A stretch of DNA of 21,894 nucleotides, taken from a virus. Location: IMG/VR virus record IMGVR_UViG_3300037137_000325, positions 1-21,894 of that record; one strand, 5' to 3'. This document shows positions 2,282 to 21,171 of the stretch, one piece after another. Within the stretch, counting starts at the first letter, position 1, and every line of letters starts with the position of its first letter. The translations under genes and the position numbers were made by a program. The notes under the pieces were generated by a model. That model did no database searches. It saw only the letters and a program-made list of their open reading frames with translations, and was not told the DNA's origin.

Positions 2282-3703
2282 ATGAGCAAAGAAATCGAAA
2301 AAGAGATCGACAGTGACGTGGATGACTCTCTAGTCATCGCACCACTGCTCGAGGGTCTGAAAAAGGTCGCCAAGCGCGCGACGGAAACGGAAGTTAGCAC
2401 AAAGGCTGCAATCACCGAGATCAAGACCGAGACAGCCGCGAGCATCGGGGCGGTCAAGGAACAGATCGAGCGTGGTATCGGGGACATGATCGACCGCATC
2501 GACACGCTCTCCAAGCGCACCAGCGTCTTCGGGAGGGTGAACGTCGATCAGGACACGTTCTCGGCGGTGAAGGAGGCTCTTCCTGCTCGGTTTTCGGATC
2601 GCGTCAGCAGGTACGAGCGCGAAACCGTGGGCACCAAGGGGTTCTTCTCGGACGCCCGAGGTCTCGCGGCGTCCCATGCATGGTTCCAGCTTTCGACCCG
2701 CCTCCAGACTCGAGCGTTCGACAAGGACCGTGAGAAGAACATGGCCGAGTTCACGAAACTGAATGACCGGCTGGAGGCCATCGAGAAGGCCGACATGGGC
2801 GGTTTGGTCGACACGAGCGGCGGATACGCCGTCCCGAACATCGTAGGCAACGAGGTCCTCAAAATCATCCGAGATGCTTCTCTCGTCTACAACAAGGCCC
2901 GACAGATCACGATGACATCGGACACTCTGTCGTTCCCTGATGAAGCGACGGCGGTTACGATCAACTGGTCGAACACGGACGGAACCGTCCTCACGGCCGG
3001 AGAGCCGGTATTTGGCGTCAAGACGCTGAACGCCCGCAAGCTGATCGGACGTGCGACGTTCTCGCTAGAGCTTCTGGATGACGCCAACGTTGCCATCGTT
3101 CCCTTCTTGCAGAGCTGCTTCGCTGAGAAGATGGGCGGCGAGCTAGACCTTCAGGCGATGGAAGGAAGCGGCGCTCCATTTACTGGCGTCTCCGGAGCGA
3201 CGAGTGTGAATGACGCCGTCGTTACCACAAACGGAACGTTAGGTCAGACGCTCACCTATGCGAGCGTTGTCGCAACGGCCGCATCTCTCGTTCGTATCTA
3301 CACGTCGGCTTCCGAGCAGTCGTCGATCGGCGGCGGGACGTTCGTTTGCGGGCCTGCGGTCTACGCCAAGATCATCGGCCTGATCGACACCAACGGTCAG
3401 CCGGTGGTTCGTCTCGGGACTGTTGAGGGTCAGCCGAATCAGACTCTCTTCGGGCGGCCGATCATCGTTAGTGCGCGGCTCCCCAAGGTGACACTCGGTG
3501 CTGGGACCAACAGCGTCGGCGGGCTGTACTACGGTCCGATGTCGTCGCTTCTGTTCGGCACCCGGCAGGGCATGCGGTGGGACGTCACCGACCAGGTTAA
3601 CTGGGCGAAGTACCAGGCGGATGCCCGCATGGTCGGCAGGTTCGGTTATGTCGTCGGAGTTCCGACGGCATGGGTTCGGAATCTCGGAATAGCCACAGCG
3701 TAA
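2282..3703 (+). CDS. HK97-fold major capsid protein with long N-terminal delta/scaffold domain
   Basis: This 473-residue protein is the main shell protein. Residues 1 to about 175 are charged and helical, including an acidic N-terminus and a long predicted coiled coil, as in the delta (built-in scaffold) domain removed by the prohead protease. The mature fold appears to begin near DTSGGYAVP (D177), followed by features of the HK97 family such as the VYNKARQITM and TLSFPDEATA region, LIGRATFSLELLDDA and a C-terminal MRWDVTDQVNW segment. No separate scaffold gene is seen. The start ATG lies four bases after the protease stop, with a GGGGG-type Shine-Dalgarno in the end of that gene. A strong hairpin follows the stop codon. 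The exact cleavage site is not visible from sequence. Confidence 0.92.
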   Translation: MSKEIEKEIDSDVDDSLVIAPLLEGLKKVAKRATETEVSTKAAITEIKTETAASIGAVKEQIERGIGDMIDRIDTLSKRTSVFGRVNVDQDTFSAVKEALPARFSDRVSRYERETVGTKGFFSDARGLAASHAWFQLSTRLQTRAFDKDREKNMAEFTKLNDRLEAIEKADMGGLVDTSGGYAVPNIVGNEVLKIIRDASLVYNKARQITMTSDTLSFPDEATAVTINWSNTDGTVLTAGEPVFGVKTLNARKLIGRATFSLELLDDANVAIVPFLQSCFAEKMGGELDLQAMEGSGAPFTGVSGATSVNDAVVTTNGTLGQTLTYASVVATAASLVRIYTSASEQSSIGGGTFVCGPAVYAKIIGLIDTNGQPVVRLGTVEGQPNQTLFGRPIIVSARLPKVTLGAGTNSVGGLYYGPMSSLLFGTRQGMRWDVTDQVNWAKYQADARMVGRFGYVVGVPTAWVRNLGIATA

Positions 3704-3755: not shown

Positions 3756-4637
3756 ATGAAAACTCCGATGAGGGTCATGGTCGCCATTCCGACGATGACC
3801 AATCGAATCACTGTCCAGATCGTTGCGCTCCTCGACGCTATGCGTGTGACGTCGTTCGACGACGATGCCGCCTTCGGCATGGAGTTCTGTATAGAGGTTG
3901 GACGTTCTCCTGTGGAGTTCGCGAGGAACATCCTGTGCGGTGCATTCCTGAAATCAGACTGCGATAAGTTGTTGTTCATCGACGAGGACATGCTGCCAGA
4001 GTCGTCCGTGGTGAGGTTGATTTATTCGGACTCGGACATCATCTCCGCGCGGATGTACAAATTCGATCACCCCAATCCAGAGAAGCGCACGACAGTAGGG
4101 TTAGGACTATGCGCAATGAGGCGCCTCGAAACCGGGTTCTATCGTCCGTTGGCACCTGAGATTGGAGATCATGCTGTGCAGGAGTGCGACGCCGTAGGGA
4201 CGGCCTGCACGGTGATCTCTCGTCGCGTCATCGAGGACAGGCGCATGTGGTCTGACAACGTGTACGTGACGGCTGACGGCAATACCGTGGATGGCAATGA
4301 AATGGTCAGTGGCCGAGAGTTCGCTCCCAACATTTTCCAATACCCGAGGGCACCGAATGGGATGGGGATCATGGGTGAGGACATTGACTTCTGCGAGCGA
4401 GCGAAGGCTCTCGGTTACAAGATATCCGTCGACATGAATGCGGTATGTGGGCATTGGAAGTCGATAGACATCGACCAAGCTGGATTCCTCGCGCAGGAAA
4501 CACTCAAGCGTGCGGTGGCTGGGATCACGCTCGAGGACGGGCGAACGATCCAGGTGGACCTAGCTTCGTCGATCAAGTCTTCGAAGAGGCCACCCGTTGA
4601 CAAGATGGTTCATGCAGAGAACGCGGTGTGCAAATGA
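3756..4637 (+). CDS. GT-A type glycosyltransferase (phage-associated family)
   Basis: This 293-residue protein is probably a nucleotide-sugar glycosyltransferase with a GT-A fold. It opens with a beta strand MRVMVAIPT. It then has an EVGRSPVEFARN block and LLFIDEDM, in which D76 and D78 form a DxD-like metal and sugar-nucleotide site. Further on come a GEDIDF segment (E208, D209) that would supply the catalytic acid and a CGHW histidine (H233) near the acceptor site. This arrangement is common in glycosyltransferases on phage genomes. Acceptor and sugar cannot be read from the sequence. AGGAG at 3740-3744 precedes the chosen ATG by 11 bases, a little far; ATG 3768 is an alternative. It heads a five-gene coupled cassette directly after the capsid gene. 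Confidence 0.78.
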   Translation: MKTPMRVMVAIPTMTNRITVQIVALLDAMRVTSFDDDAAFGMEFCIEVGRSPVEFARNILCGAFLKSDCDKLLFIDEDMLPESSVVRLIYSDSDIISARMYKFDHPNPEKRTTVGLGLCAMRRLETGFYRPLAPEIGDHAVQECDAVGTACTVISRRVIEDRRMWSDNVYVTADGNTVDGNEMVSGREFAPNIFQYPRAPNGMGIMGEDIDFCERAKALGYKISVDMNAVCGHWKSIDIDQAGFLAQETLKRAVAGITLEDGRTIQVDLASSIKSSKRPPVDKMVHAENAVCK

Positions 4638-5422
4638 TGGTCTCGATAATCATCCGCGGAAAGAACGGGCACGAGTTGACGGCGAGGTGCATCGCGTCGA
4701 TCTTGGAGAATACCGAGATCGGAACCTACCGGTTGATCGTTGTGGACGACGGCAGTGAGCCCCGGTACTCGTTCCCGTGCGATTACGCGGTGCGCTCTGA
4801 GGTGAGCAGAGGAGCGGTCACTGCGACGAACCTCGGTCTAGGGATTGCTCTCCAACAGGCCGACGCTCCCTACATCCTCGTCATGGACAACGACACTGAG
4901 GTTCCATCTGGGGATTCGGAGTGGCTGGAACGGTTCGTTGCTGAGCTCGAGGAGAACCCTAAGACTGGCGCGGTTGGAGCCACCACAAACTTCTCGAAGG
5001 GTCCGCAGCACGCTCTCGCCGTTCCTCAGACGTACACGGCCGACTGGTCCGACGACAAGACTAAGTCCGGAGGGCAAAGGTCCAACCCGGAGGTCGCTGA
5101 CTTTGTTTCATTCGCTGTGCTGCTGCGCCGAGACGCTGTCGCGCGCGTCGGATTCTGGGATGAACAGTACAACCCAGGGAACTTCGAGGACACCGACTAT
5201 TCGGTGCAACTTCGTCTAGCCGGCTGGGAGGTCCGCGTCGCTAGATCGGTGTATATCCACCACCGAGGCCACTCCACTTTCGCGGCCAACCTGGCGAACC
5301 TACTCCAGTCCAACGGGCTGAAGTTCATGCAGAAGTGGGGACCAGGCCACCTGTGGGATCTAGGGTTACTCCCGACCAAGTCGCTAGTTCAGGCTGTGAA
5401 GTTCCGGGAGGGGCGGCAATGA
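4634..5422 (+). CDS. Family 2 (GT2) glycosyltransferase
   Basis: This is a textbook GT2-like inverting glycosyltransferase of 262 residues. MVSIIIRGKNG is the first strand, VVDDGS (D38, D39) binds the nucleotide, VMDNDTE (D85, D87) is the DxD metal motif, NFEDTDY (E185, D186) is the catalytic ED motif and HHRGH (H209, H210) is the late histidine element. There is no membrane segment, so it should be soluble in the infected cell. ATG 4634 is chosen because it forms an ATGA overlap with the previous stop, the rule in this genome; GTG 4628 and ATG 4637 are alternatives. The Shine-Dalgarno is weak, which suggests coupled translation with the upstream transferase and possibly a joint pathway. Confidence 0.85.
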   Translation: MMVSIIIRGKNGHELTARCIASILENTEIGTYRLIVVDDGSEPRYSFPCDYAVRSEVSRGAVTATNLGLGIALQQADAPYILVMDNDTEVPSGDSEWLERFVAELEENPKTGAVGATTNFSKGPQHALAVPQTYTADWSDDKTKSGGQRSNPEVADFVSFAVLLRRDAVARVGFWDEQYNPGNFEDTDYSVQLRLAGWEVRVARSVYIHHRGHSTFAANLANLLQSNGLKFMQKWGPGHLWDLGLLPTKSLVQAVKFREGRQ

Positions 5423-5964
5423 GCGAGGCCGTATTCTCTAGCATCCGTCGAGCCGCCCCGGCTGGGTGCATGATCGTCGATACAACTTGGAACGGTGCCG
5501 CCTTCGTCGGAGGGCTCGTCAACCTATTTCGTCCAACTCGAGCAATCGAAATCGGATCGTGCAACGGATTTACGTCGGCCTATATCGGAAACGCCATGAG
5601 TGAAAACGGGGTTGGTTCGTTCATCGCGTTTGAACTCGACGTCATTCGAGCTTTCGAGACAACATCGAAACTGAAAGCAGTTTGGCCTGAAGGATCGTGG
5701 TCGGTTGTCAACGGCGATTTCTTTTCAGAAGTCAAGGAAGACCCAATCGACTTCGCATTCCTCGACATCGATCCGAAGTCACTATACATCCCGGCGTTCG
5801 AGAAGATCAAACATCTCATGGGGAGCGGGTCGGTCTTGGTCGCACACGATCTTGACTATGATCCTCTCGCCGTAAACGAACTGCGCGAAGTCATGGCCGC
5901 AGACGGCTGGCTGTGCCTAGGACTTCACAAGGAACGCGGGTTCCTAGTGGCGGTGAAAGCATGA
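5419..5964 (+). CDS. Class I SAM-dependent methyltransferase (first of two)
   Basis: This 181-residue Rossmann-fold methyltransferase resembles the small O-methyltransferase-like group (Methyltransf_24 type). Motif I is AIEIGSCNGFTSA (residues 42-54), the SAM-binding loop. FLDIDPKSLYIPAF and a later VAHDLDYD carry the acidic residues that in this group often bind metal or lie at the active site. ATG 5419 is used rather than the upstream GTG at 5335, because GGGAGGGG sits just before it and it makes an ATGA overlap. It ends VKA, like the next gene. The substrate is unknown; a sugar made or transferred by the upstream glycosyltransferases is a reasonable guess. Confidence 0.75.
   Translation: MSEAVFSSIRRAAPAGCMIVDTTWNGAAFVGGLVNLFRPTRAIEIGSCNGFTSAYIGNAMSENGVGSFIAFELDVIRAFETTSKLKAVWPEGSWSVVNGDFFSEVKEDPIDFAFLDIDPKSLYIPAFEKIKHLMGSGSVLVAHDLDYDPLAVNELREVMAADGWLCLGLHKERGFLVAVKA
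5952..5964 (+). repeat. 13-base direct repeat, copy 1, at a methyltransferase gene junction
   Basis: GGTGAAAGCATGA covers the end of the first methyltransferase, its stop, and the Shine-Dalgarno and start of the second. An identical copy lies at 6497-6509, so the two copies bracket the second methyltransferase exactly. It could mark past duplication or exchange of that gene. Confidence 0.7.
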
Positions 5965-6509
5965 CCGCGCAGCAGTTGGTCGATGCCATCCTCGGGCTAG
6001 GCGTGACAATCCAGCCTCATCCTTCCAACGAACAGGATTGTCAGTACCAATCGCCGGATGACCCCGGCAGGCAGGACAGGTCGTCCGTGACTCTCCAGGA
6101 GGGTGTCCTATTGTCTGAGTGGGCTAGTGGGCACCGTGTTATGGAGATCGGTACAGGGCTCGGGGTTTCCACTGTGGCCTTGGCACACCATGCGGATTTC
6201 GTCCACACGATCGACCCGTCCGAGTGGGTTCGGTCTGCGCTGACGATGCCGCAGAACGTAAGACAGTGGGCATCGGTCGAAGACGTTCCTGGGACGTTCG
6301 GCAGGATCTTCATCGATGGTCTCCACGATTTTGCAAGCGTTTGCAAGGACATCGAATCGGCTCTCCTGATGCTGAGTCCGGAGGGGCAGGTCGCCTTCCA
6401 CGATATGTGTCAATCCGACGTTAGGGCCGCAGTCGACAGTTTCGACTGGAAAGACCGAATTGAGTATCCGACCGTGGGCCTTCTCACGTTCTGTATGGTG
6501 AAAGCATGA
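5961..6509 (+). CDS. Class I SAM-dependent methyltransferase (second of two)
   Basis: This 182-residue protein also has a Rossmann-type SAM site: VMEIGTGLGVST (residues 60-71) is motif I, followed by an acidic residue in TIDPSE. FIDGLHDFASVCKDIE and VAFHDM are the conserved blocks of the Methyltransf_24-like group, with an active-site Asp and His. It has about 40 extra N-terminal residues before the fold, unlike its neighbour. ATG 5961 overlaps the upstream stop as ATGA, and GGTGA lies upstream. It is probably a distant paralogue of the preceding gene, given the shared fold, size and VKA ending, but the two are not close in sequence. The substrate is unknown. Confidence 0.75.
   Translation: MTAQQLVDAILGLGVTIQPHPSNEQDCQYQSPDDPGRQDRSSVTLQEGVLLSEWASGHRVMEIGTGLGVSTVALAHHADFVHTIDPSEWVRSALTMPQNVRQWASVEDVPGTFGRIFIDGLHDFASVCKDIESALLMLSPEGQVAFHDMCQSDVRAAVDSFDWKDRIEYPTVGLLTFCMVKA
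6497..6509 (+). repeat. 13-base direct repeat, copy 2, at the radical SAM gene junction
   Basis: This is an exact second copy of the sequence at 5952-5964, again spanning Shine-Dalgarno, stop and start codons. Together the two copies frame a unit of about 545 bases containing one methyltransferase gene. Confidence 0.7.
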
Positions 6510-7600
6510 AGCCGCTCTACAAACCACGAGGCGGGATCATCTCTCGGGGTTGGCTGTTCCTCGGTGAAGATGGCGGGCCGTGCGACAAGGCGTGTGAGTT
6601 CTGTTATTACGCCTATTCAAAGAATCTTGTTTTCTTCTCGTTCGAGACGCTGCTACAGCACGCGAATCTCTTCCGCCACTACTACGACCTCGACGCCTGC
6701 GACATCACCGGGGGAGAGGCGACGATCTACAAGACGCCGAAGGGCACCATCGTTGATCTAGTCCGGCATTGCGCCAGTATCGGCCTCAAGCCCACGATCA
6801 TCTCGCACGGGCAGAACAACCGCGAAGATTGGAAGCTCGGCTACAAGCGCCCGCTGTACCAGGAGATCGAGGAGGCGGGCCTCGAGGATTGGCTCATCTC
6901 GCTCCACGGGGGGTCTCCCGAATCCCACGACAAGATCCTCGGCAGCGAAGGGTCGTTCCATCGCCTCATCGCCGGCCTCGATCTCGTCAAGAAGCCAGTT
7001 CGATTCAACTCGACCATCGTGGATACGAACTACCGCGACCTCCCCGTCAATATCCTGAAGGACCGTCCTCCCACGGTCTACAACATGATCGCGTTCAACC
7101 CGTTCCACGCATGGCACGAGAAGACCGGATTGACGGAGATCGACTTCCAGTCTAAGTACACTGACTCGGCTCCCTACGTTGCCAGGGCCGTGGAGGAACT
7201 CGAGACTGTAGGTTGGGAAGTGAACGTCCGGTACTTTCCGATGTGCATCGCTGAGAAGCACGGATTCGCGGCAAACGTCAGCGGCTATCACCAGGTCCCT
7301 TACGATCCCTGGGAATGGCGATTGAATGTGACAGGTAGAACTCCGATGGAGCAGATCAACCACCAGGGCGGGTGGGAAGCCGCAGAGCGCAATTCCGCGT
7401 TGACGTGGATGAAGGGGCGTTCGAATCCTACATGTTCCACGTGTAGGAACAAGATGATCTGTGACGCTCCACAGGTCCAATATCAGACGAAGTACGGGCT
7501 CGGTGAACTCATCCCCTCTCTTGGAGAGCCGATCATCGACCCGTTGCATTACCAATCCGCGAGGGGTCACGAGACCGTTGCTGAGGAGAAGGCATCATGA
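6506..7600 (+). CDS. Radical SAM protein with SPASM-like C-terminal cysteines
   Basis: This 364-residue enzyme carries the radical SAM CxxxCxxC motif (C26, C30, C33, followed by YY), which binds a 4Fe-4S cluster that cleaves SAM. The GGE motif of the SAM site is at 69-71 (DITGGEATIY). Near the C-terminus C310, C313 and C319 form a CxxCx5C pattern as in SPASM/twitch auxiliary-cluster domains, and C247 could be a further ligand. Such enzymes modify peptides, proteins or sugars by radical chemistry. It is the last enzyme of the capsid-adjacent cassette, joined by ATGA overlaps at both ends. The fold is clear; the substrate is not. A capsid, tail or sugar substrate is inference from context only. 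Confidence 0.85.
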   Translation: MKPLYKPRGGIISRGWLFLGEDGGPCDKACEFCYYAYSKNLVFFSFETLLQHANLFRHYYDLDACDITGGEATIYKTPKGTIVDLVRHCASIGLKPTIISHGQNNREDWKLGYKRPLYQEIEEAGLEDWLISLHGGSPESHDKILGSEGSFHRLIAGLDLVKKPVRFNSTIVDTNYRDLPVNILKDRPPTVYNMIAFNPFHAWHEKTGLTEIDFQSKYTDSAPYVARAVEELETVGWEVNVRYFPMCIAEKHGFAANVSGYHQVPYDPWEWRLNVTGRTPMEQINHQGGWEAAERNSALTWMKGRSNPTCSTCRNKMICDAPQVQYQTKYGLGELIPSLGEPIIDPLHYQSARGHETVAEEKAS

Positions 7601-8006: not shown

Positions 8007-8621
8007 ATGGCGCTCGCGGGGCCTTCGGACATCGGCTCGTGGATCGGTAAGGACATCGACCCGTCTAAGCAAGCCGAACTGACAGCGACCATTGCCTTTG
8101 CACAGGCGTGGATCGCACAGGACGCGGGGCTGCGCAGTTTAGAAAAAGAATCGTCTGCGGTCACCACCTATCTCGACGGATCGGATGCTGGGGGTGGGTC
8201 GACTGCACTCTGGTTGCCGGCCGACCTCCGGCCCGTGTGGCACTCCGGTTCTGATTTGATGGTCGTGGCAGCGGAAGGGACAACACTAACACTATCCGTC
8301 GGGTATTCCATTACGGCCGATGTTGTCCTCAGTAATGTAAACACATCGAGGCGCGTCTGCCTTCATAAGAGGGGAGGATGGCTGACTTCTGGGCCCCAGA
8401 ACGTTTCCGTGACGTGCAAGGTAGGTTGGCATCTCGATACTGGGGTCCTCGTCGCCACACCAGAAATTAGACGCCTTATTATGGAGGTCGCCTGGTTGAT
8501 GTTCAACTCCCACGCGTGGGTTGGGAAGCAGAGCATCTCGAAGGGTGGTAGCTCCATATCCATTGAGAACGATCTATCCCCCGGATCAAGGTCGACCCTC
8601 GACAGTTTGCGGGGTGTCTAA
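8007..8621 (+). CDS. Head-tail connector (adaptor) protein
   Basis: This 204-residue protein holds the place of the adaptor that docks under the portal (HK97 gp6-like group). The N-terminal helices (SDIGSWIGKD, then KQAELTATIAFAQAWIAQDAG in part) and the C-terminal helix (TPEIRRLIMEVAWLMFNSHA) flank a beta-rich middle, the usual shape of phage gp6/Gp15-like connectors. It lies two bases after the preceding stop with little Shine-Dalgarno signal, and ends in a TAATG overlap with the gp10-like gene. The call rests on shape and gene order more than on a diagnostic motif. Confidence 0.65.
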   Translation: MALAGPSDIGSWIGKDIDPSKQAELTATIAFAQAWIAQDAGLRSLEKESSAVTTYLDGSDAGGGSTALWLPADLRPVWHSGSDLMVVAAEGTTLTLSVGYSITADVVLSNVNTSRRVCLHKRGGWLTSGPQNVSVTCKVGWHLDTGVLVATPEIRRLIMEVAWLMFNSHAWVGKQSISKGGSSISIENDLSPGSRSTLDSLRGV

Positions 8622-16353: not shown

Positions 16354-16692
16354 ATGGCGGTTGAGACTACGACTATTGCCGGGAAGATTTACCAGCCGTC
16401 CGGGGCTGCCTACACCACCGCGCAGGGTTCTCTTGTGGCCTCGCTATCGAAGCCCGGTCGTGCAACGGACGGCGCTTCTACTTCGGTTGTCGCGGGTCGT
16501 ATATTAGGAACCATCGCGGCCAACGGTGACGTCTCAATCGTCCTCGTGCCGAACGACGTCATCTCCCCGGCGGCGACATACTACATGGTCTATTTCTCGC
16601 TCGTCGGTCCGACGCCGATGTCGTGGATGGAGAAGTGGAGTGTGGTCACTACCCCGGACCCGATCGCTTTAGGGGCCGTGACGAGGCTGTAG
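16354..16692 (+). CDS. Free-standing copy of the fibre N-terminal domain
   Basis: This 112-residue beta-rich protein is homologous along its whole length to residues 1-111 of the next gene product. By hand alignment with one gap, about 64 of 111 positions are identical, including LVPND, PTPM, EKWSV and TPDPIA. It therefore arose by tandem duplication or is the truncated remnant of a full fibre gene. It keeps an intact frame, a start with GGTGA nearby and a one-base overlap with the next gene, so it is probably expressed. It may bind the same tail site as the fibre and cap or adapt it. The function is inference. Confidence 0.75.
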   Translation: MAVETTTIAGKIYQPSGAAYTTAQGSLVASLSKPGRATDGASTSVVAGRILGTIAANGDVSIVLVPNDVISPAATYYMVYFSLVGPTPMSWMEKWSVVTTPDPIALGAVTRL

Positions 16693-17024
16693 TGGCTGTC
16701 AACACAACGACGGTTCAAGGGACAGTCTACCTTCCTGGAGGCGCCACGCCGGTGACGAAGGGGACCGTCACAGCGTCCCTATCATTCCGAGGTCAGGCAG
16801 CGGACGGCGCGACGACGGCTGTCATCGCCGGCCGTATTACGTCGCCCATAGACGTGGCCGGGTTCGTCACCATCTTACTCGTACCCAACGATCAAATAAC
16901 GCCGGCCGGAACCTGGTACAACGTGGCCTTCGATGTCCAGACGCCTACCCCGATGCGGTGGACCGAGAAGTGGTCAGTTACCAATACGCCAGACCCGATT
17001 GCCATCGGCTCAGTTACGCGGTTG
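16354..17024 (+). repeat. Tandem duplication of a roughly 335-base fibre domain
   Basis: Two adjacent units, 16354-16689 and 16692-17024, encode the same domain in different reading frames, with about 57 percent amino-acid identity by hand count. The nucleotide sequences have diverged well beyond simple repeats, so the duplication is old and both copies seem to be kept by selection. Confidence 0.75.
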
Positions 17025-18431
17025 GACTTTCCTCCTGGTGGCACCGGGGGAGGCGGCGGGTCTGGGTCGGTGACTCATACGTCTGGGCCTCTGACTTCCA
17101 ACCTGGTCATCCTCGGCGCCGGTGGGGATGACATCAAGACCCTGGCGACGACTGGCGCCGGTAAGTTCCTTCGCGATGACTCGACCTGGCAAACGATCGC
17201 AGCCGGAGGTGACGCTCTCGTCGCAAACGGCTTCGGTCAGTTCGCACCGCAAACGTCGTTGCAGTTGAAGAACACCCTGAGCGACGAAGTAGGAACCGGC
17301 GCTGCTGTCTTCAAGTCATACGTCGACGATCTTGTCACCCAGGTTTATTACTTCTGTGCTTCGGTCAACGTAACGGCTGGGACCCCCGTTGGGTTCGGTG
17401 TCCATGATGATCTGCACCAGCGCGGCGCTCCGTTCCTTGCCGGAGAGATTGTCCTAGACGACACCGCGACAACGCCTGGACTCTCGATGGAGATCATCTT
17501 CAGCGGTGTTGGGGCGATCACCACCGCCATCTTCGACGTGACGTACTACATCGCGACGGATGCGGCCCACACGATCTCCCTCCAGGCGTGGAACTACAAC
17601 ACCTCGGCGTGGGACACTCTAGGCACGGCCCCAGGAGAGGCGATCCAGTATTCCTACACGTCATATCAGTTCACGCTAACGACGCCCGCGAACTACGTTA
17701 GCGCCGGTGCTGCGAAACTGAGAGTGCATCATCCGGATCTGGGGATCGTAGGGCACGAACTGCTCGTAGGCTACGCATCGCTGGCGTACATCCCGGCTGG
17801 AATAGTCACAGACCACGGCAACCTGACGGGCCTCGCCAACAACGACCATCCCCAGTACGTTCGCCTATTCGACAATCCGATCTGGCAGGGAGTTCACAAT
17901 TTCGAGTGGCCGGTAACGCATCACGAAGCGTTGATCATCGACTTCGATACAGACATCTACGCTCATGCTGCGCCTTACTTGAGGTTTCTGAGAAGCTTAT
18001 CAGGGCTGCATATGGATTTCGTTTTGAGTCCAGAAGGCAGCATGACCCTGAATTCCAGTCAGACTGCAGCCATAGATACGGCTGTTCTGACAGTGATAAC
18101 GACTGAGGCTGCGGTGACGGGGTGGTCCCTATTCCGCACGCTGGATAGTGCAGGTCTAACGCAATTCTCCGTGCATAAGTTCGTAGACGGCTGGGGACTC
18201 AAGATCGGCAATCCCTCCATCAGCATCTACCCCAACAACACCACAGGGCACGGGGACATCAGCTACGACATGCCGAGCAATGACGCACTGGCTGAGAGCA
18301 TATTCAAGAACCGCCTTCGGGCGTCTAACTTCGCCGCAGGGGCGAGTGTTTCCGGCGTCAATACCGGGGACGATCCTCTTTCAACCGGAGGCTCAACGGT
18401 TCCACTCGTATTCTGTATGATGGGGGCATAA
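16692..18431 (+). CDS. Tail fibre / receptor-binding protein
   Basis: This 579-residue protein starts with GTG in a TAGTG junction. Residues 1-111 are the domain duplicated upstream, likely the virion anchor. A Gly-rich hinge (GGTGGGGGSGS) follows. The stretch THTSGPLTSNLVILGAGGDD, then GKFLRDDSTW, is a repeat-type fibre shaft motif. The middle (about 190-365) is beta-rich. At residues 374-391 is DHGNLTGLANNDHPQY, a motif found in many phage tail fibres that may hold metal through its histidines. The C-terminal 190 residues probably carry receptor contact (WGLKIGNPSISIYPN, ASVSGVNTGDD). No enzymatic motif is seen. The anchor and receptor roles are inference from layout. Confidence 0.8.
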   Translation: MAVNTTTVQGTVYLPGGATPVTKGTVTASLSFRGQAADGATTAVIAGRITSPIDVAGFVTILLVPNDQITPAGTWYNVAFDVQTPTPMRWTEKWSVTNTPDPIAIGSVTRLDFPPGGTGGGGGSGSVTHTSGPLTSNLVILGAGGDDIKTLATTGAGKFLRDDSTWQTIAAGGDALVANGFGQFAPQTSLQLKNTLSDEVGTGAAVFKSYVDDLVTQVYYFCASVNVTAGTPVGFGVHDDLHQRGAPFLAGEIVLDDTATTPGLSMEIIFSGVGAITTAIFDVTYYIATDAAHTISLQAWNYNTSAWDTLGTAPGEAIQYSYTSYQFTLTTPANYVSAGAAKLRVHHPDLGIVGHELLVGYASLAYIPAGIVTDHGNLTGLANNDHPQYVRLFDNPIWQGVHNFEWPVTHHEALIIDFDTDIYAHAAPYLRFLRSLSGLHMDFVLSPEGSMTLNSSQTAAIDTAVLTVITTEAAVTGWSLFRTLDSAGLTQFSVHKFVDGWGLKIGNPSISIYPNNTTGHGDISYDMPSNDALAESIFKNRLRASNFAAGASVSGVNTGDDPLSTGGSTVPLVFCMMGA

Positions 18432-19937: not shown

Positions 19938-20375
19938 ATGATCGGATCGGTGCTTCTAGCCGGCGTGTGTCTGTTGCCACCGATGTTCGACATGGACGGG
20001 CCGTCCTGTCTCATTGAGACCGAGGAGTGCCGGTGCTCGGAGTGTCTGGCGTGGGAAGCGACAGCGGGGGCGACGGAGTACCGCATCATGCGGACGACGC
20101 TTTCTACCGGGAATGAAGTTCAGGTGGGCATCGTGGGCGAGCGCGTGACCGACGAGGACGGAACGATCGACCTCCCCGAACTGTGGTGCGTGGCGAAGGA
20201 CGTCCCGTTCCCGCACGAGGGGACGTCGTACCGATACACCGTTGTCGCGTGCAATATCAACGGGTGCAGTCCGACTCCCAGTAACGGAGTCACCTACGTT
20301 GGTAGCCCCTACGCTTGCTTCTCAAATGACCGTGAGGTCTCCTGCTACATCGGAGACCCGGTGGTGACGCGATGA
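19938..20375 (+). CDS. Cys-rich fibronectin-III-like protein with hydrophobic N-terminus
   Basis: This 145-residue protein could instead start at GTG 19935; neither start has a clear Shine-Dalgarno. It opens with a short hydrophobic stretch (IGSVLLAGVCLLPPMF) that could be a signal or anchor, though it lacks the usual positive charge, and AGVC fits a lipobox poorly. Next come a run of cysteines (ETEECRCSEC) and a fibronectin-III-like pattern: LAWEATAGATEYRIMR and YRYTVVACNINGCS. Ten cysteines in total suggest disulphides, so export, or metal binding. It overlaps the endolysin gene by ATGA, so it may be part of the lysis cassette or a virion surface protein. The function is unknown. Confidence 0.55.
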   Translation: MIGSVLLAGVCLLPPMFDMDGPSCLIETEECRCSECLAWEATAGATEYRIMRTTLSTGNEVQVGIVGERVTDEDGTIDLPELWCVAKDVPFPHEGTSYRYTVVACNINGCSPTPSNGVTYVGSPYACFSNDREVSCYIGDPVVTR

Positions 20376-20884
20376 GCGGCCCCATGACCCCTTCGGCTGC
20401 TCGGATGGTCTGCGACGTGTTCTACCTCGCTCTCGTCGTGTGGCGAGAAGCCAGGGGGGCTTCCCATGCGGCTCAGGTTGCTGTGGCTCATTCCCTAATG
20501 AATCGGGTCAAGAGGCCCGGATGGTGGGGGAAAGACGTCTCGAGCGTGGCGACGAAGAAATGGCAGTACAGTTCCCTTGCCGCTCCGGGTGATCCGCAAC
20601 TGATCCTGTGGCCCACCTTGTCTGATTCCTCCTGGCTCGGGTCGCTCGGGGTGGCCTACGACGTGATCCACTCGGAGGAGCCGAACCCGATGCCGGGTGC
20701 CGACAGCTACTACGACGACAGCATCCCGCCGCCCAAGTGGACGAAAGGCGCACGGCTCTGCGGCAAGATCGACAACCTCAACTTCTACGACGTGGACAAC
20801 GACTGGGAGGCTGAGGGAATGGTCGCTACCGTTCCCGGCCCTTCCGACTTCGACGCGAAGCTCGCGGCGTTCCTTGGGGGATGA
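20372..20884 (+). CDS. Endolysin, SleB-type cell wall hydrolase
   Basis: This 170-residue protein matches the SleB/CwlJ cell wall hydrolase family (Hydrolase_2), peptidoglycan lytic enzymes. The block VVWREARGASHAAQVAVAHS places the family's catalytic Glu at E26, followed by LMNRV. Later come KWQYSS, an aromatic loop region around NPMPGADSYYDD, and KGARLCGKIDNLNFY, the family's substrate-side end. It has no signal peptide, so it needs a holin for release. The neighbours downstream are two small membrane proteins, a standard lysis arrangement. ATG 20372 makes an ATGA overlap with the upstream Cys-rich gene, and GGTGGTGA precedes it. Confidence 0.85.
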   Translation: MSGPMTPSAARMVCDVFYLALVVWREARGASHAAQVAVAHSLMNRVKRPGWWGKDVSSVATKKWQYSSLAAPGDPQLILWPTLSDSSWLGSLGVAYDVIHSEEPNPMPGADSYYDDSIPPPKWTKGARLCGKIDNLNFYDVDNDWEAEGMVATVPGPSDFDAKLAAFLGG

Positions 20885-20898
20885 AAGGTGGTCACGCC

Positions 20899-21171
20899 AT
20901 GAGGGTCCGAACGATCACGCAGCCGAACGGGAAGGGCGACGTGCGGGAGATGTACTTCGGGATGGACGTCATCGCCCCCGTCGCTGGATTCGTTGTTGCG
21001 GCATTCGCGGCATGGTTGTCTCTGAGACTCGAAGTGCAAGAGATCAAGACCATCCAGAGCGAAGACAACGACCACCTGCACACCATCATTCAGCAGCATG
21101 TTGAGCAATACGACGACTCGAAACAGTTTGTCACTCGGAGCGAACTAGACCGGGCAATGGTTGGACGTTGA
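20899..21171 (+). CDS. Single-pass membrane protein of the lysis cassette (holin- or spanin-like)
   Basis: This 90-residue protein has one clear membrane helix (about residues 22-43: MDVIAPVAGFVVAAFAAWLS). A charged, helical C-terminal half (EVQEIKTIQSEDND, then HVEQYDDSKQFVTRSELD) could form a coiled coil. This layout suits a small holin or an inner-membrane spanin; the sequence does not decide. ATG 20899 is preferred because AAGGTGG precedes it at good spacing; ATG 20881 would overlap the endolysin stop as ATGA, but with the Shine-Dalgarno almost touching the start. It directly follows the endolysin gene. Confidence 0.65.
   Translation: MRVRTITQPNGKGDVREMYFGMDVIAPVAGFVVAAFAAWLSLRLEVQEIKTIQSEDNDHLHTIIQQHVEQYDDSKQFVTRSELDRAMVGR

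Follow-up and report, generated by a model that had tools for sequence, protein, structure and literature searches.

Phage particles are usually regarded as bare protein. The locus described here raises the question of why the head operon of a virus should carry five consecutive enzyme genes, for two glycosyltransferase-like proteins, two methyltransferases and a radical SAM enzyme, and what these enzymes modify. It lies in a complete IMG/VR virus record (IMGVR_UViG_3300037137_000325), a linear fragment of 21,894 bases that was analysed as a whole and is referred to below as the window. The 5' end of the window falls within a portal-MuF fusion gene, with the S78 prohead protease gene and then the HK97-type capsid gene downstream; tail genes are found beyond the head-tail adaptor gene. 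The five enzyme genes, henceforth the cassette, and their flanking features are listed in Table 1.

Table 1. Features of the cassette and its immediate surroundings (window positions)
Feature	Coordinates	Strand	Basis
HK97-type major capsid protein, left neighbour	2282..3703	+	Pfam Phage_capsid 98 bits; PHROG major head protein
Hairpin, 11-bp GC stem, GAAA loop	3710..3735	+	Between capsid gene and cassette
GTA, putative GT-A-like glycosyltransferase (DED, ED, H motifs)	3756..4637	+	PHROG, motifs, L019 homologue
GT2, family 2 glycosyltransferase	4634..5422	+	Pfam 60.2 bits
MT1, class I methyltransferase (Methyltransf_24), type 1	5419..5964	+	Pfam
MT2, class I methyltransferase (Methyltransf_24), type 2	5961..6509	+	Pfam
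rSAM, radical SAM enzyme	6506..7600	+	PF04055, alignment
g8, small all-beta protein (predicted), 135 aa	7597..8004	+	Structure model; ATGA-coupled to rSAM
Head-tail adaptor, right neighbour	8007..8621	+	PHROG 442 connector E 8e-7

An earlier note, made from the sequence alone, had placed five enzymes between capsid and connector genes and described intact motifs and ATGA overlaps throughout. Both descriptions hold: the coordinates are correct, both flanks are assigned by Pfam and PHROG, all five open reading frames are intact where they had been located, and a 4-nt ATGA overlap is present at each junction from GTA through g8. Hydropathy analysis detected no membrane segments in any of the five enzymes, nor did Pfam and hydropathy reveal a flippase, a polyprenyl-phosphate transferase or a membrane protein in the cassette. 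No sugar-nucleotide synthesis gene was recognised within the cassette either, so host sugars would be needed. Transferases encoded among virion genes, as expected of phage-encoded virion glycosylation, are found in the window as well as in its relatives.

GT2 exceeds the Pfam cut-off for Glycos_transf_2 (PF00535; 23.3 bits) and carries the invariant residues D85-N-D87, E185-D186 and H209-H210; it is 27% identical to Mycobacterium phage Sparky gp88. On weaker grounds, GTA is probably a glycosyltransferase too. It matches a PHROG glycosyltransferase (E 4e-5), its distant homologue in the viral contig L019 matches Glyco_tranf_2_3 (E 3.5e-4), and residues D76-x-D78, E208-D209 and H233 are invariant in the alignment; its best Pfam match, Anp1, reaches an E value of 0.08 only. 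Profile comparison of GTA with GT2 as a test of homology gave a weak match (probability 4%), with only the ED motif region aligned. Neither GTA (50,697 records) nor its counterpart in contig L018 has a match among isolate phages.

The third type of enzyme, rSAM, belongs to the radical SAM superfamily (PF04055; 33.3 bits, cut-off 29.5) and displays the motifs CX3CX2C (C26-C30-C33) and GGE. Its nearest solved relative is BlsE, a cytosylglucuronate decarboxylase that decarboxylates a glucuronoside sugar at C5 (PMC3715490). BlsE is the sole convincing solved match by sequence (E 4e-5) and the first Foldseek match of the rSAM model, which is of low confidence (pLDDT 62). The CX3CX2C and GGE core is common to both proteins, but rSAM differs in having GGEA instead of GGEP and extra C-terminal cysteines, and BlsE acts in a different pathway; against the BlsE equivalog model (TIGR04466) rSAM scores E 6e-8 and 32.4 bits, below the cut-off of 400. 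The additional cysteines (Cys247, Cys310, Cys313 and Cys319) do not vary among eight diverse sequences and would be compatible with an additional Fe-S cluster. The description of rSAM as SPASM-like holds in part: these four residues may mark an auxiliary cluster, but rSAM has no match to the SPASM Pfam models.

Close relatives that extend past the capsid gene comprise seven contigs (L002, L003, L005, L006, L007, L008 and L009), with capsid proteins 63-100% identical to that of the window. One of these contigs appears under several identifiers (L004, L007, L011, L013, L016, L027 and L033), L002 hardly differs from the window, and the cassette of L008 starts as that of L003 does, so that the contigs represent about five different viruses in addition to the window. 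GTA and GT2 occupy the capsid-adjacent slot in all seven contigs, and rSAM is present in every one that is long enough, L008 stopping just past GT2. Because the slot recurs in this way, the position of the cassette is not due to chance. In these relatives, identity amounts to 78-87% for rSAM and 74-82% for GT2, compared with 64-80% for the capsid protein. Changes in GT2 and rSAM are concentrated at codon position 3, reflecting purifying selection. Conservation of both enzymes at least equal to that of the capsid protein is what would be expected of functional enzymes whose substrate is stable.

MT1 and MT2 both pass the Methyltransf_24 cut-off (PF13578; 33.9 and 38.1 bits, respectively, cut-off 26.3), and the two types are just 15-20% identical to each other. 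Orthologues of either type are found between GT2 and rSAM, the MT1 type in L003, L005 and L007 and the MT2 type in L006 and L009, and both types occur together in the window and L002. An assembly join as the source of the double methyltransferase was rejected, L002 (possibly the same virus) being 100% identical there. No recognised methyltransferase is present in L018, and the methyltransferase position is an exchangeable slot. A search for the exact five-gene order in other phages, as the earlier note had suggested, gave a different picture: relatives carry four genes, and five is the window's own version, shared by L002.

More distant relatives retain parts of the set. In L029 (capsid 37% identical), GTA alone is sandwiched by the capsid gene and g8, while in L014 (capsid about 32-36%) GTA alone follows the capsid gene, the portal and protease genes being separated by an MT1-like gene; matches to GT2 or rSAM were found nowhere in the available sequence of these two records, both possibly fragments. 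L018 (capsid 23%) displays the order capsid, small protein, GTA, GT2 (39%), a stretch lacking a recognised methyltransferase, rSAM (47%) and adaptor. L019 and L017 carry GTA, GT2, a GT4-type gene, a Methyltransf_24 gene, a sulfotransferase-like gene and rSAM between terminase-like and portal-like genes. The adaptor of L018 and the terminase-like and portal-like genes of L019 and L017 were named from translations and gene order. GTA, GT2 and rSAM are thus combined in three unrelated viral contigs (L018, L019 and L017), in each case within a virion gene block, and constitute a core that recurs at different points of such blocks with varying tailoring enzymes around it. None of the isolate phages searched carries the full set, and megablast identified no near-identical isolate phage.

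Among isolate phages, rSAM relatives spanning most of the protein are found only in Campylobacter phages (24-26% identical). One of these, gp166 of phage CPt10, is likewise a radical SAM protein, but it lacks glycosyltransferase and methyltransferase neighbours and adjoins a thymidine kinase and a phosphoesterase; with no cassette around the gene, it was discarded as a model. Phage rSAM proteins fall on one side of a branch (86/99), with the bacterial and Campylobacter-phage proteins on the other, and this phage-specific clade possibly represents new sugar chemistry. Of the four best-matching bacterial rSAM contigs (L021 to L024), the three covered by the family scan (L021, L022 and L023) have GT2 or GT4 neighbours. 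No host was identified: four MAG contigs contain distant rSAM relatives, and a genome-contig scan at E 1e-3 detected none of the window's virion genes on them.

Since the best-matching bacterial rSAM relatives mostly adjoin GT2 or GT4 genes, and two of the phage sets also include genes for GT4, methyltransferase and sulfotransferase enzymes, a sugar or glycan is the favoured substrate. Where the earlier note had offered a glycan or a tailored peptide as product, the former is supported by these neighbourhoods and the latter becomes less likely. Its claim of a dedicated modification pathway is backed by the co-inheritance of the set in a virion operon and by related sets in other phages. On balance, we consider it probable that the cassette encodes a cytosolic, late-expressed glycan pathway that modifies a virion protein. 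The glycan chemistry is well supported, whereas a virion acceptor is suggested by position. GTA, the only cassette gene that distant relatives retain by itself behind the capsid gene, would attach the initial sugar to either the capsid protein or g8, with GT2 elongating the product. The radical SAM enzyme would carry out a reaction at a sugar carbon (oxidation, decarboxylation, epimerisation or another change), comparable to that of BlsE on its glucuronoside, and the methyltransferase or methyltransferases would cap hydroxyls. The benefit might be, for example, altered adsorption, stability or particle recognition. Step order, sugar, chemistry, acceptor and benefit are the parts of this pathway that we infer.

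Alternatively, the cassette may modify the surface polysaccharide of the host during infection, excluding other phages or altering the receptor. Such a role would fit the glycosyltransferase-rich loci that bacterial rSAM relatives occupy. It would also fit the interpretation of pelagimyophage glycosyltransferases as modifying host LPS (PMC7029224). Those genes belong to a hypervariable region in which radical SAM cassettes are likewise found; in contrast to the set of the window, they accompany tail-fibre genes, and the myophage genome is large. We nevertheless regard a host-surface target as unlikely. The set contains none of the membrane components named above, its genes reside in the head operon, constantly beside virion genes and coupled to g8, and late expression, as deduced from the head operon, would be poorly suited to exclusion.

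A second alternative is that rSAM acts on the capsid protein or g8 itself, by epimerisation, crosslinking or thioether formation in the manner of HxsC or SPASM maturases, the transferases being separate or acting later. HxsC (TIGR03977) is indeed the top NCBIfam match of rSAM (E 1.7e-9), although at 37 bits it stays far below the cut-off of 267.9; SuiB and EpeE are among the structural matches of the low-confidence model, and the four conserved cysteines could hold an auxiliary cluster. However, no RiPP precursor-peptide gene is found beside rSAM, the 4-nt overlaps leaving no space for one inside the set and the adjacent g8 encoding a 135-aa protein predicted to fold, and both the closest solved sequence, BlsE, and the sugar-related gene neighbourhoods in bacteria and phages argue against a protein substrate, which we consider improbable as well.

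Accidental cargo (a moron) with no role in the particle would be in line with the swapping of the methyltransferase slot and the absence of most of the set from distant relatives, but is very improbable in view of the strict slot, the coupling, the conservation at least equal to that of the capsid protein and the recurrence of the set in unrelated phages. DNA-glucosylating transferases are known from phages, and rSAM weakly matches prokaryotic viperin models; yet modification of phage DNA or nucleotides, such as hypermodified bases or viperin-like products, is scarcely credible given 23.6 bits against a viperin cut-off of 180 (NF038283), the absence of nucleotide-metabolism neighbours and the location in the head operon. 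A defence function was likewise set aside, the only indications being weak matches to viperin and to a MADS methyltransferase domain.

Under the preferred reading of a virion glycan pathway, the location of the set, its coupling and the absence of membrane components argue for a particle protein as acceptor, with the capsid protein or g8 as candidates. The neighbour of rSAM, g8, is predicted to be a folded protein. Its model (pLDDT 79) is all-beta with nine strands, and the predicted fold resembles that of many small uncharacterised phage proteins. Ser and Thr make up 27% of its residues, and identity in close relatives is only 43-53%. It is a candidate virion surface protein as well as a candidate acceptor. 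In its strict form, the idea of a dedicated acceptor travelling with the set was rejected: because L029 has a g8 (66% identical to that of the window) in the absence of GT2, methyltransferase and rSAM, g8 is not a dedicated partner of these enzymes. No homology was detectable between g8 and the small protein of L018.

Among known systems, mycobacteriophages Che8 and Rita (cluster F1) resemble the window in that their own glycosyltransferases are thought to glycosylate the capsid protein; capsid-linked glycans reported for both are cited in PMC11256854, which also describes the glycosyltransferase genes of Maravista near the genome 3' end. In contrast to such a 3' location, the transferases of the window sit in the head operon; moreover, no comparable radical SAM and methyltransferase set was found alongside the mycobacteriophage genes, and sequence similarity is weak. 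No description of the cassette was found in openly licensed papers, nor did the literature searched describe radical chemistry on a virion glycan. We would class the cassette as a variant of virion glycosylation encoded by phages, distinguished by its unusual radical step, rather than as a new type of system. A conceivable extension, which we put forward tentatively and rate as falling short of probable, is that in several unrelated phage lineages rSAM remodels a phage-built virion glycan on a capsid or decoration protein, the methyl or sulfate caps being interchangeable. Judging from this recurring, position-conserved set for glycan building and radical tailoring in head operons, some uncultured phages may carry elaborate sugars, and the cassette provides a defined gene set for testing virion glycans.

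Finally, the hairpin reported at the left edge of the cassette is well founded. Its stability corresponds to a z-score of -4.8, with 0 of 200 shuffles equally stable. In an alignment of six sequences, 95.5% of cells are paired as compared with 78.5% in shuffles, and both sides have changed at five pairs; the position is common to all six group viruses compared despite differing sequence. An intrinsic terminator was rejected, as there is no T-run and the hairpin is absent from the terminator scan listing. It likely ends or stabilises the capsid message, such that capsid output would greatly exceed enzyme output. In L014 and L018, a hairpin is likewise located immediately 3' of the capsid gene.

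Two close relatives of the window virus, L003 and L008, have near-identical cassette starts but unlike capsid N-termini, a combination that suggests recombination inside the capsid gene. Among the relatives, insertion of a short ORF between GTA and GT2 is confined to L006; its product is Cys-rich with a signal-peptide-like start.

The tandem radical SAM enzymes of L019, an unrelated viral contig, are 28% and 42% identical to that of the window, and the first copy falls outside the group of other phage enzymes in the radical SAM tree. In L017, likewise unrelated, the start region of the radical SAM gene differs in frame from the remainder, reflecting either a break or a sequencing error. An HNH-type homing-endonuclease-like ORF immediately precedes this gene.

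Locations of individual features
Feature	Location	Strand
Extra short Cys-rich ORF between GTA and GT2	L006:6655-6936	
Two tandem radical SAM genes	L019:8866-11116	
HNH-type homing-endonuclease-like ORF	L017:14969-15763	minus
Stand-alone 112-aa protein	window 16354-16692	
Long protein, next after 112-aa protein	window 16623-18431	
SleB-like endolysin, then small protein	window 20372-21171	

In the window, the 112-aa protein resembles a copy of the long protein's N-terminal domain, with common motifs such as '...MEKWSVVTTPDPIALGAVTRL' and '...TEKWSVTNTPDPIAIGSVTRL'; the pair is probably a tail-fibre base duplication. The small protein following the endolysin has a single strong hydrophobic segment, and the two probably form a lysis pair.
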